DNA from: an uncultured Solirubrobacteraceae bacterium
GTDB taxonomy: Bacteria > Actinomycetota > Thermoleophilia > Solirubrobacterales > Solirubrobacteraceae
Assembly: GCA_902806175.1 (NCBI GenBank)
Contig: CADCVQ010000050.1
Span: 1 to 64,000 of the forward strand
Reading direction: 5' to 3'
Length of the DNA: 64,000 bases
Both the position numbers and the translations under genes were made by a program. This document shows, piece after piece, positions 2,069 to 49,408 of this stretch (positions are counted from its first letter, which is position 1; the number at the start of each line of letters is the position of its first letter). The notes below the pieces were generated by a model, which worked only from the letters and a program-made list of their open reading frames with translations, had not been told where the DNA came from and made no database searches.

Positions 2069-2112
2069 TCGTGTCGCATCGAGGGGCGCTATTCGCACCC
2101 GATGCGACACGA
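2069..2112 (+). repeat. Palindromic repeat, family A, solitary copy
   Basis: A perfect 13-bp inverted repeat (TCGTGTCGCATCG with CGATGCGACACGA) encloses an 18-nt loop. Both arms and the loop (GGGGCG near one end, CGCACC near the other) closely match the tandem units at 47975-48236, including the trailing ATCGC. It lies between the F420 oxidoreductase and msrB genes. Confidence 0.8.
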
Positions 2113-11170: not shown

Positions 11171-11217
11171 GGTCGTGGCGGCTCTGCTGCGCCATACGCA
11201 GCAATGTCGCCACGACC
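11171..11217 (+). repeat. Palindromic repeat, family B, copy 1
   Basis: Outer arms GGTCGTGGCG and CGCCACGACC flank an inner palindrome TGCTGCG-CCATA-CGCAGCA, giving a two-part stem of about 47 bp. The next copy starts 14 nt later with the same inner sequence. Confidence 0.8.
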
Positions 11218-11231
11218 GGCCCCGCGCATGC

Positions 11232-11277
11232 GGTCGTGGCGCGTGTGCTGCGCCATACGCAGCAATCGCGCCACGAC
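11232..11277 (+). repeat. Palindromic repeat, family B, copy 2
   Basis: GTCGTGGCGCG and CGCGCCACGAC flank the same inner palindrome (TGCTGCG-CCATA-CGCAGCA) as copy 1. The connecting bases differ between the copies in a compensating way (GCGCG with CGCGC here), so pairing is kept. Confidence 0.8.
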
Positions 11278-45875: not shown

Positions 45876-45907
45876 TGTCGCGAGCGTAGCTCAGGGGGCG
45901 GCGACGC
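45866..45907 (-). repeat. Right copy of the direct repeat bracketing the glycan cluster, with promoter
   Basis: It spans the fahA stop (TGA at 45893-45891), the TACGCT -10 (45883-45888) and the first codons of the 178-residue gene. The left copy at 40263-40303 reproduces all three parts. Confidence 0.75.
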
Positions 45908-46979
45908 GGCCGCGCACCTCGCCCAGCTCGACAGCGCCGGCGTTGGCGCGCAGCACGACGTCGTCGCCGTCGGCGAGCCAGCGCTGCCCCCGGTGCAGCT
46001 CGGCGAGCGAGCCCGCGCTCTGCGGCTGCGTGCCGCTGATCGTGCCCGTCGCGAAGAGGTCGCCGGCGCTCAGGCGCGCGCCGTTGACGGTGAGGTGCGC
46101 GAGCATCTGCGCCGGCGTCCAGTACAGGCTCTTCGCGCTCGGGCGCGAGACGACCTCGCCGTTGATCTCGATGCTGAGGTCGATGCCGAGCAGCCACGGC
46201 TCTTTCGCTGTCAGGTAGGGCGCGGCCGGCGGGTCCTGCGGCGGCGGCTGCGTGCGAGCTGCGGCGAGCGCCGTCAAGGGCGTGATCCAGGCCGACATCG
46301 ACGTCGCGAAGGACTTGCCGAGGAACGGGCCCAGCGGCTCGTACTCATAGCGCTGGATGTCGCGCGCGCTCCAGTCGTTGACGACGACCACGCCGAAGAT
46401 GTGCTGTTCGGCGCGATCGATTGCGATCGGTCCCGTCGCCGTCGGGCCGCAGATGTAGCCGAGCTCGGCCTCGAGGTCGAGCTGGGCGGTCGCCTGCAGG
46501 ACCGCCGGGCCGATCTGCCCATGCGGGCGGCGGATCGTCGTGCCGCTGACGACGACCGTGGAGGCGCGCCCGTGGTAGGCGATCGGCATGTGGCGCCAGT
46601 TGTCGCGCACCGCCGGCGCGTCCGGGCGGAAGATGGCGCCGAAGTTCGTGGCGTGCTCGAGCGACGCGTAGAAGTCGACGTAGTCCGGGATCTGGATCGG
46701 GAGCACGGCGGTCGTGTCGGCAAGGGCGCGGCGCGCTGCGGCGGGCGCGTCCGCCGCGGCCTGCTGGACTGCGCACCAGGCGGGCGGGCCGAGCTCGATG
46801 AGGGCGTTGAGGGTGGGGGAGCGCAGAGCGCGGCGCAGGTCGGGGCCGTCGTCGTCGAGCGCAAGCTCCGCGGCGAGCAGCACGTCGTCGCCGTCGCGCA
46901 GGGCGGGCTGCGGCGCGCCGCCGTCCACGCGGACCACGCCCCACTGGAGGTTCGCGGCTGAAGGCTCGCGCAGGGTCAT
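45891..46979 (-). CDS. fahA: Fumarylacetoacetase
   Basis: The 363-residue enzyme hydrolyses fumarylacetoacetate to fumarate and acetoacetate, the last step of tyrosine catabolism. The segment DYVDFYASLEHATNFGAIF carries the first metal aspartate and the catalytic histidine; ELGYICG and VVVNDWSARDIQRYEYEPLGPF supply further metal ligands and active-site residues. The N-terminal domain is shorter than in mammalian FAH. The ATG at 46979 has a TACGTT hexamer 10 nt upstream. The gene is separated from hmgA by the DUF559-type gene and repeats. Confidence 0.93.
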   Translation of the reverse strand: MTLREPSAANLQWGVVRVDGGAPQPALRDGDDVLLAAELALDDDGPDLRRALRSPTLNALIELGPPAWCAVQQAAADAPAAARRALADTTAVLPIQIPDYVDFYASLEHATNFGAIFRPDAPAVRDNWRHMPIAYHGRASTVVVSGTTIRRPHGQIGPAVLQATAQLDLEAELGYICGPTATGPIAIDRAEQHIFGVVVVNDWSARDIQRYEYEPLGPFLGKSFATSMSAWITPLTALAAARTQPPPQDPPAAPYLTAKEPWLLGIDLSIEINGEVVSRPSAKSLYWTPAQMLAHLTVNGARLSAGDLFATGTISGTQPQSAGSLAELHRGQRWLADGDDVVLRANAGAVELGEVRGRVAAP

Positions 46980-46995: not shown

Positions 46996-47038
46996 GGCGA
47001 TCTGCGAGAGGCCGGCGCGGGCCGGGCCCCGAGTGGAC

Positions 47039-47083
47039 ATGTCGCGCGCGGTGCGCCATGCGCATCCTCACATGACACGACGA
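47039..47083 (-). repeat. Palindromic repeat, family A, inverted copy at the 3' side of the DUF559-type gene
   Basis: Read on the minus strand it aligns with the tandem units at 47975-48236 (TCGTGTC...GGATGCGCATGGCGCACC...CGCGACA), with about 70 percent identity over 41 positions. It lies 13 nt beyond the gene's stop codon and in opposite orientation to the tandem array. Confidence 0.65.
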
Positions 47084-47096
47084 CTCGGATTGGCGG

Positions 47097-47996
47097 CTAC
47101 CCGAGCAACGGCGTGAGCTCCGCCGCCGTCTGCGTGCCGCGCTCGAATACGTCGCCCCAGGTGAAGGCGAGGTGACTGGAGCGCCGGCGGCGGGCGACGT
47201 CGTCCTCGAAGGCGCGGCGGCTGGCGTGGAAGCGGTAGCTCAGCAGCTCGACGGTGAGCCTGTGGCGCGGCCAGTGGCAGTCGACCTTGTCGCCGGCGAG
47301 GTCGATGTTCGTGCGGGGAAGCGGCAGGCCGTGGCGGCGCAGCAGCGCGAGGAAGCCGTCCTCGAGGTCACTGAGGGTCACGTCGGCGCCGAGCGCCTGG
47401 CGCAGCTTCGCGATGCCCTTCTTCGTGGGGTTGCGCGCAATGCAGCGCTCGACGTCCGGCGGCGTCACCCGATGGCGGATCCATGCCTCGTGACAGGCAC
47501 GCGTCAGGTCCGCGCGCGACAGGCGTGGCGCCATGTCGAGCAGGATGCGCGGCACCGTTGTGATGGCGACGCCGTGCAACCGCGTGACGTCGGCCGGATG
47601 CAGCTGCCTCACGCGGTGCACGACGAGGCCCCTGCGCTCGCGGCCGGAGGTCGTGGGAACCGTGACCTCGAGCTGGCCCACGTGCACCGACACGATCCGC
47701 ATCGCGTGGCCGGCGGACCCGTGGCTGACGGCAGCTCCAGCGCCCGCCGCCAGCGCAGCGGCCATGAGATCTGCCAGCAGCGACGGCGCGGTGTGGCCGA
47801 CGGCATAGACCCCGACGTGGACGGGGCGCAGCCGGCCGTCGGCGCGCCAGCGCTTGATCCGCTCACGATCTATGCCGGCGGCGACGAGCTGTGCGTGGGA
47901 GATCCTGCCGTGCTGCTGGCCGGCGATGCGGGCGACCGCGTAGAACAGACGGCGCTGCGGCGCGGTGATCGCGATCGTGTCATACGGAGGGCCCAT
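47097..47996 (-). CDS. DUF559-type protein with N-terminal AbiEi-like winged helix
   Basis: The 299-residue protein has an N-terminal AbiEi_4-like winged helix (about 14-62: VARIAGQQHGRISHAQLVAAGIDRE, then LRPVHVGVYAVGH), a middle region with SHGSAGHAMRI and TTVPRILLDMA, and a C-terminal DUF559 domain (about 205-299). DUF559 is related to Vsr/restriction-endonuclease-like nucleases. Candidate acidic residues are visible around LPLPRTNIDLAGDKVDCHWP, but the family motif is not fully typical. The ATG chosen lies inside the first repeat unit, so the first 10 codons are repeat-derived. The family is greatly expanded in Solirubrobacterales (recollection); function unknown. Confidence 0.75.
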   Translation of the reverse strand: MGPPYDTIAITAPQRRLFYAVARIAGQQHGRISHAQLVAAGIDRERIKRWRADGRLRPVHVGVYAVGHTAPSLLADLMAAALAAGAGAAVSHGSAGHAMRIVSVHVGQLEVTVPTTSGRERRGLVVHRVRQLHPADVTRLHGVAITTVPRILLDMAPRLSRADLTRACHEAWIRHRVTPPDVERCIARNPTKKGIAKLRQALGADVTLSDLEDGFLALLRRHGLPLPRTNIDLAGDKVDCHWPRHRLTVELLSYRFHASRRAFEDDVARRRRSSHLAFTWGDVFERGTQTAAELTPLLG

Positions 47997-48236
47997 GTCA
48001 CACCTGAGGCGACAGGACCTCGCTTTTCGCCCCTCTCCCAGGCGGTCGTGTCGCGCGGGGGGGCGGATGGCGCACCTTGGACGACATGACGGCGCTTGGA
48101 CCCTCTCCCGTGTGGTTGTGTCGCGTGTGGGGGCGGATGACGCACCCCGCACGACACGACCGTGCTTCTCGCCCGCTGCGACGTAGTCGTGTCGCGTCGG
48201 GGGGCGGTAGACGCACCCCGCGCGACACGATCGCGC
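47975..48236 (+). repeat. Tandem array of four ~71-bp palindromic units, family A
   Basis: Units begin at 47975, 48046, 48116 and 48187 (spacing 71, 70, 71). Each starts TYGTGTCG, has GGGGGCGG and ACGCACC in the middle and, in units 2-4, ends with CGACACGA- or CGACATGA-type sequence complementary to the start; a CT-rich linker follows. Unit 1 is the most diverged and contains the start codon of the DUF559-type gene; unit 4 ends at the hmgA stop codon. Confidence 0.88.
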
Positions 48237-49408
48237 TACACCGGCGCCTGCGCCCCCGCGTGCCAGCTCAAGGCGTAGCGCGGGTCGTCCAGCTCGCGCG
48301 CGAGCGCCGTCAGCCGCAAGGGAGCGAACGTGTCGCACATCACCGCCAGCTCGTCGGTTCGCGTGGAGCCCAGCGAGGCCTCGACGCGGCCCGGCTGCGG
48401 GCCGTGCGGCAGGCCGCTGGGGTGCAGCGTCAGCGCGCCCGCGCCGACGCCGGCACGCGAGCCGAACTGGCCGTCGACGTAGTAGATGACCTCCTCGGAC
48501 TGCAGATTGGAGTGGTGGTAGGGGATCGGCACCGCGAGCGGGTCCCAGTCGAGGTTGCGCGGGCAGAACGAGCAGATCACGAAGTTCGGGCCCTGGAAGG
48601 TCTGGTGCACCGTCGGCGGCTGGTGCAGCCGCCCCGACTTCGGCTCGAAGTCGTGGATGTTGAAGCTGTAGGGATAGACGTAGCCGTCCCAGCCGACGAC
48701 GTCGAAGGGGTGGTAGTCCAGGACGAAGCGCTGAAAGCCGCGCCGCACCCGCACGACGAGCTCGAACGCCCCGCGATCGCGGTGGGTCTTCAGCGACGCC
48801 GGCGGATGGAAGTCGCGCTGCGAGAACGGCGCGTGCTCGAGCAGTTGGCCGTAGCGGTTGCGATAGCGGTTGGGCGTCTCGATCCCGCCCGGGGTGTGGA
48901 ACGTCAGCCACGTCTGCGGCCCGTCGTCGCACTTCACCCGGTACGTCGTGCCGCGGGGGATCACGACGTAGTCGTGCTGCCCGTAGGGCAGGCTCCCGAA
49001 GATCGTCTCGAAGACGCCCGACCCCTCGTGGACGAACACCACCTCGTCGCCCTCGCCGTTGCGATAGAAGCCGTCGAACTCCTCGACGGGCTTGCAGATC
49101 GCCATCTCGACGTCGTTGTTGAACATCAGCACGCGGCGCCCGAAGATCGGGTCTCCGGCCGCCCCCAGCCCGCTGGTCTGCGTCAGCCGGTGCACGTGCG
49201 CGTCGGGTATCCACTCCTCCAGCGCGACCGGCTCGAACGAGCCGACCTCCATCACGTCACACGGCGAGCGCAGGTGATAGAGGATCGACTCGTTGCCCGA
49301 GAAGCCCTCGTAGCCCATGACCTCCTCGACGAGCAGGTCGCCGCTCTCGCCGTCGCGGACCTGCGTGTGCCGTTTGGCCGGCACGTCGCCCAGGGACACG
49401 TAGCGCAT
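48236..49408 (-). CDS. hmgA: Homogentisate 1,2-dioxygenase
   Basis: The 390-residue iron enzyme opens the homogentisate ring to maleylacetoacetate. The iron-binding region is visible as PIPYHHSNLQSEEVIYYVDG followed by TLHPSGLPHGP, containing the conserved His and Glu ligands. FHTPGGIETPNRYRN and VYPYSFNIHDFEPK are also family segments. The protein is shorter than the mammalian form, as in many actinobacteria. It starts 2 nt after the hppD stop, and its own stop abuts the repeat array. Confidence 0.95.
   Translation of the reverse strand: MRYVSLGDVPAKRHTQVRDGESGDLLVEEVMGYEGFSGNESILYHLRSPCDVMEVGSFEPVALEEWIPDAHVHRLTQTSGLGAAGDPIFGRRVLMFNNDVEMAICKPVEEFDGFYRNGEGDEVVFVHEGSGVFETIFGSLPYGQHDYVVIPRGTTYRVKCDDGPQTWLTFHTPGGIETPNRYRNRYGQLLEHAPFSQRDFHPPASLKTHRDRGAFELVVRVRRGFQRFVLDYHPFDVVGWDGYVYPYSFNIHDFEPKSGRLHQPPTVHQTFQGPNFVICSFCPRNLDWDPLAVPIPYHHSNLQSEEVIYYVDGQFGSRAGVGAGALTLHPSGLPHGPQPGRVEASLGSTRTDELAVMCDTFAPLRLTALARELDDPRYALSWHAGAQAPV

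Follow-up and report, generated by a model that had tools for sequence, protein, structure and literature searches.

The hmgA-fahA locus

We analyzed a 64,000-nucleotide (nt) stretch of DNA (the window) on contig C50 of a 4.12-Mb Solirubrobacteraceae genome (183 contigs; hereafter G000). The subject of this report is a minus-strand gene at 47097 to 47996 (299 amino acids; start ATG at 47994 to 47996) for a predicted fusion of an AbiEi-type winged helix-turn-helix (wHTH) domain and a Vsr/DUF559-type nuclease, together with the short hairpins that surround it and recur elsewhere in the genome. An earlier interpretation made from the letters alone (the sequence-only reading) had likened this arrangement to repetitive extragenic palindromic (REP) sequences and their REP-associated tyrosine transposases (RAYTs). 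It also held that the block separates hmgA from fahA, and profile matches to both flanks agree. The entire block of hairpins and nuclease gene is enclosed by hmgA (48236 to 49408, minus; homogentisate 1,2-dioxygenase-like; HgmA_N, E 2e-9) and fahA (45891 to 46979, minus; fumarylacetoacetase; FAA_hydrolase, E 1.2e-41).

Hairpins were scored with R2, a covariance model of the hairpin. Unit 1 (47975 to 48017, minus; 21.5 bits, E 0.006) is degenerate and holds the start codon, a position at which homologues also carry a hairpin. Upstream of the gene lie units 2 (48046 to 48089, plus; 55.0 bits), 3 (48116 to 48159, plus; 58.8 bits), and 4 (48187 to 48230, plus; 64.1 bits), the last of which adjoins the hmgA stop codon. 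These three units score at E 5e-11 to 3e-13 within the window and are spaced by 70 and 71 nt. The four tandem palindromes of about 71 bp that had been described earlier are therefore present, but the core of each is a 44-nt imperfect hairpin, roughly TCGTGTCGCG..GGGGGCG-N5-CGCACCC..CGCGACACGA, and the remainder of the repeat is a GGGGCGAA-type linker. The GGGGCGAA motif itself is found 37 nt before the ATG (48026 to 48033, minus). Because degenerate versions that can be read in the sequence precede unit 2 (GGGTCCAA, 48096 to 48103, minus) and unit 3 (GCGGGCGAGAAG, 48165 to 48176, minus), the 71-nt array resembles a series of duplicated start units of the gene.

Two other early observations, namely that the start codon lies inside unit 1 and that a diverged copy lies downstream, also held. 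The downstream hairpin (47037 to 47080, minus; 28.2 bits) lies 17 nt past the stop codon, before fahA. A solo intergenic hairpin of the same family as units 1 to 4, likewise noticed earlier, is located at 2069 to 2112 (plus; 63.8 bits). A tandem pair at 11173 to 11215 (plus; 22.1 bits; folded) and 11234 to 11276 (plus; 33.1 bits) had been overlooked. Both members have GTGGCG arms and form a second family; similar arms are present at another homologue, on contig C26 of the host genome.

In profile searches, the window protein matches AbiEi_4 (E 1.7e-6) and the PADLOC AbiEi profile (E 9e-27, approximately residues 25 to 193). Residue numbers follow a 304-amino-acid reading of the frame (47100 to 48011), in which the ATG adopted here is residue 6. 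An AlphaFold model (predicted local distance difference test score 90.4) was used for structure comparisons. Its N-terminal part aligns with AbiEi (6y8q; Z 12.6, 183 residues, root-mean-square deviation [rmsd] 3.9), and its C-terminal part aligns with I-Bth0305I (Z 9.9, 86 residues, rmsd 2.4) and Vsr (1cw0; Z 8.9, 92 residues, rmsd 2.5), with the Vsr-type match spanning residues 212 to 304. On the basis of this model, the protein joins the fold of an AbiEi antitoxin to a nuclease of the Vsr/DUF559 type. Residues S214, E217, P232, D244, W247, and E255 are invariant in 48 aligned homologues. Such invariance, including that of the acidic residues E217, D244, and E255, is expected of a working PD-(D/E)XK enzyme, and nuclease activity is therefore predicted. 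The Vsr-like domain named in the sequence-only reading is upheld by structure. The Pfam DUF559 model recognizes 27 of the 48 homologues and not the window protein itself.

Hairpins at the starts and flanks of homologous genes

Homologues were gathered by protein similarity alone, and 47 of 61 related genomes carry one. In class A (approximately 27 genes), the start codon is situated exactly at the hairpin center. In class B, the start precedes the hairpin center by 20 to 29 nt, and so the hairpin resides inside the coding region. The position of the hairpin relative to the protein domain is nevertheless constant across both classes. Its design is constant as well, consisting of an outer stem, an irregular middle (often CCTA/CTTA opposite CAAA), an inner stem, and a loop with the ATG, whereas the arm sequences vary from gene to gene, even between close paralogues within one genome. 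Of six close paralogues in genome G054 (loci L217 to L221 and L073), each has a different start hairpin.

The arms of individual genes covary. We fixed the geometry of the hairpin for the 41 homologues that have an ATG in frame at this position and permuted the right arms between genes. The mean complementarity of a gene's own arms was 9.18, versus 2.77 after permutation, and none of 20,000 permutations reached the observed value (highest 4.41). Likewise, an ATG-centered hairpin scoring at least 10 is present in 24 of these 41 genes, compared to 87 of 13,153 background ATGs (0.66%) from 800 kb of two genomes (Fisher p 1.5e-40). Of 40 class A homologues, 31 also have a GGGGGCGAA motif, with at most one mismatch, at -37 to -39. 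As judged by these sequence comparisons, a hairpin at the gene start is a general rule that extends beyond the window gene. Outside the bacterial class to which the host belongs, the start hairpin is patchy and appears at only some of 24 loci. Loci L303, L313, L315, L318, and L321, which come from other actinobacterial families, have strong hairpins at or near the start, and that of L321, located just upstream, is nearly perfect (score 21.5).

Many genes carry a second hairpin of their own in their flanks, either around the stop codon or upstream. Around the stop codon, a gene's own hairpin outscores all 68 foreign ones in 14 of 69 genes (1 expected, p 1e-12), and the same is true upstream for 8 of 69 (p 7e-6). 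Hairpins occur on both sides of the window gene and of its counterpart in G002, and the latter is bracketed by two 57-nt direct repeats that are 82% identical. In G010 (L087), 52 nt of the start-hairpin region recur almost perfectly 157 nt past the stop codon, possibly as the beginning of a tandem gene that has since been lost.

Dispersed copies and probable gene movement

The exact arm pattern CGTGTCGC..GCGACACG occurs at 6 places in the host genome and at none for the reversed control, and so the repeat is not due to chance. A simpler 16-nt pattern (659 places versus 418 for its control) was too weak to be of use. Searching the host genome with R2 revealed approximately 40 distinct sites, often tandem pairs 60 to 71 nt apart. 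The genome includes three AbiEi_4 genes above the cut-off, and strong R2 sites adjoin the window gene alone. This limited physical association first resembled a refutation, but weaker, gene-specific hairpins were then identified at the host-genome homologues on contigs C26 and C42. Most solo copies are not beside an AbiEi-nuclease gene, which agrees by half with the pattern that the sequence-only reading had named as evidence against it, namely copies without DUF559 neighbors. They share the arms of that gene, however, as in REP/RAYT systems. Elsewhere in the host genome, contig C152 (L036:700-1560) has at least seven hairpins of at least two arm families within approximately 850 bp; no nuclease gene was observed in this array.

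The match between solo hairpins and the gene of their own genome was sampled in 400 kb each of G054 and G052. At E<0.01, start hairpins from these genomes recover solo copies of their own genome exclusively. Each such copy folds, and in most of them the ATG of the gene is replaced in the loop by ATA, ATT, or ATC. When the arms of a single G054 gene were sought as a pattern in 61 whole genomes, seven matches were found in G054, corresponding to the start of the gene and six nearly identical solo copies spread over four contigs. The 60 other genomes gave three single matches with unrelated cores, and the reversed control gave two. Repeat abundance is thus tied to the cognate gene for one arm family across 61 genomes and in the own-versus-other comparison of two genomes. 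Similarly, copies in G002 have GTGACGCG arms that resemble those of the hairpins surrounding the gene there; in G006, one copy has GTGGCGT..ACGCCAC arms like those of the G006 gene. Two other observations concern G054. Near-identical hairpins (CGCTGGGTCGCTTTACCC..AAAGCGACCCAGCG) at L269:4850, L267:19800, and L275:19320 have no matching start hairpin among the G054 genes fetched, and the solo hairpin in L264 resembles a mosaic of the arms of two paralogues.

Of 32 solo hairpins (repeated rows counted once; simple purpose-written gene finder), 30 are intergenic, in genomes that are 90 to 93% coding. Together with the many sites in the host genome, this count reveals that the hairpins are dispersed and extragenic, as is typical of REPs.

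The hmgA-fahA junction, for which the sequence-only reading had suggested a search for an empty site in close relatives, exhibits both insertion and inversion polymorphism. The gene is on the strand of its neighbors in G000 and is inverted in G002, and the site is empty in the congener G001, an outcome that favors the sequence-only reading. Because the genes of G000 and G002 group as sisters in the tree (99/92) and occupy one site in opposite orientations, the simplest account would be one insertion followed by inversion between the flanking hairpins. The 61-nt spacer at the empty G001 site (L208:3222-3283) has GACACGACCG, which could represent one half of a former hairpin arm. In five congeners, the orthologous junction has no counterpart of the solo hairpin at 2069. 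Movement is not frequent for every copy, since the homologues on G000 contig C26 and G006 contig C24 share a site beside a uvrB-like gene (named by eye).

A tyrosine-transposase RAYT system was considered and rejected. The genus is without such RAYTs: a search confined to the Y1 (HUH tyrosine) family, PF01797, gave no match in seven genus genomes, while control genomes gave matches. The GTAG/GTGG-type foot 5′ of the palindrome is also missing, in that no GTAG is present at the foot of the aligned units.

Interpretation and relation to known systems

We consider it probable (roughly 0.6) that the gene and its hairpins constitute one REP/RAYT-like system in which a different enzyme takes the place of the RAYT. 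The RAYT-like logic of the sequence-only reading is well supported by the start hairpin that each gene owns, the frequent second hairpin, and the solo copies that match the gene of their own genome. Binding, cutting, copying, and autoregulation by the protein are steps that we infer from sequence patterns. Perhaps the AbiEi-type winged-helix part recognizes its own hairpin by the gene-specific arms and irregular middle, and the Vsr-like part introduces nicks or breaks in or next to hairpins. These breaks might then be repaired or recombined in ways that copy hairpins to intergenic sites, build tandem arrays beside the gene, and invert or relocate the gene between two hairpins. The protein might also repress its own synthesis through the hairpin over its start codon. 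An AbiEi protein binds the 23-bp inverted repeats of its own promoter but not those of another AbiEi protein (PMC7319586), which fits both gene-specific arms and self-repression. Autoregulation is equally compatible with the start hairpin. For a broader proposal we would offer even odds: that this is an undescribed class of selfish repeat, widespread in Solirubrobacterales, whose AbiEi-Vsr nuclease recognizes, cuts, and spreads hairpins with its own arms, regulates itself via the start-codon hairpin, and shifts arm specificity between paralogues.

Several findings weigh against a REP/RAYT-like system. About one-third of homologues are without a clear start hairpin, unit 1 of the window gene is itself degenerate, and a second hairpin could be identified for no more than 22 of 69 genes. 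A distant homologue on contig C80 of the host genome (30% identity) has no start hairpin. Copy numbers (tens) are below those of many REP families, and dispersed copies were sampled in depth in two genomes only. Finally, insertion edges and target-site duplications cannot be read to the base because the intergenic DNA has diverged.

The strongest alternative, which we nonetheless regard as unlikely, is that the hairpin is only an AbiEi-type autoregulatory operator and that its dispersed copies represent a regulon or decoys from unrelated duplication. In its favor, AbiEi and Rv2827c each recognize inverted repeats in the promoter of their own gene (four in tandem for Rv2827c) and do not bind those of the other (PMC7319586), and a hairpin covers the start codon here at a fixed place. 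However, an operator alone leaves unexplained the matched hairpins at stop codons, the nearly identical solo copies on several G054 contigs, and the gene inversion and empty site. It also provides no reason for a fused nuclease with invariant acidic residues. Moreover, the AbiEii nucleotidyltransferase toxin gene expected as a partner is not adjacent to the window gene, whose neighbors are hmgA and fahA.

An RNA hairpin that hides the start codon, with dispersed copies serving as REP-like RNA hairpins at transcript 3′ ends, strikes us as doubtful to a greater degree. Translation control of this kind would suit the exact centering of the ATG in class A genes, the covarying structure, and the intergenic location of solo copies, many of which are downstream of genes. 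It is difficult to reconcile with class B, where the hairpin falls within the coding region, and the sharing of gene-specific arms by intergenic and stop-codon copies points to DNA. Furthermore, no Rfam family matches the hairpin. Least probable is that another transposase moves the hairpins as passive miniature inverted-repeat transposable elements among which the nuclease gene merely sits, which would accommodate the solo copies remote from any such gene but not the fixed-place hairpin in homologues of dozens of genomes, the gene-specific arms that match solos of their own genome only, or the absence of a Y1 transposase (the one family searched) from the genus.

REP repeats occur commonly among bacteria. 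If a second, unrelated enzyme with this genomic signature handles such elements, REP-like spread would have evolved more than once. A large uncharacterized family of wHTH-nuclease genes would thereby gain a cellular role. In addition, the gene-specific and fast-changing arms would offer ready protein/DNA pairs for studying how nucleases change targets. We found no prior report in the open PubMed Central (PMC) literature, where searches for DUF559 with transposon or AbiEi gave nothing and those with palindromes gave only unrelated papers.

Each part of the putative system has known relatives. The C-terminal domain of most homologues belongs to the DUF559/MTES_1575 restriction endonuclease family (PMC3710099), which is known solely as a Vsr-fold domain and for which no palindrome link was found in that literature. 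I-Bth0305I, a Vsr-type homing endonuclease, and Vsr share the C-terminal fold and a selfish-gene flavor, whereas the gene described here is outside any intron or homing site, is tied to hairpins, and has an AbiEi DNA-binding part. The type IV toxin-antitoxin proteins AbiEi and Rv2827c (PMC7319586) resemble the window protein in their two-domain DNA-binding fold, and members of that family bind inverted repeats adjoining the start of their own gene. The window protein differs from them in that no AbiEii gene adjoins, a nuclease is fused, and matching repeats are scattered through the genome.

In the literature examined, REP spread is tied solely to Y1/HUH RAYT enzymes. These partners (RAYT or TnpA-REP) are IS200/IS605-related Y1 transposases (PMC2817692, PMC8266576), whose hallmarks are obligate flanking REPs, coevolution with REPs, and a dependence of REP abundance on the cognate gene (PMC2817692). 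Recognition of REPs requires stem irregularities (PMC8266576). The system proposed here differs in its enzyme, in having no GTAG foot, in placing the start codon inside a hairpin, and in its fixed GGGGGCGAA motif. Its likeness to REP/RAYT systems lies in short imperfect hairpins between genes, a single cognate gene (with hairpins on both sides in the window and in G002), arms that track that gene, tandem arrays, an irregular stem middle, and species-specific families.
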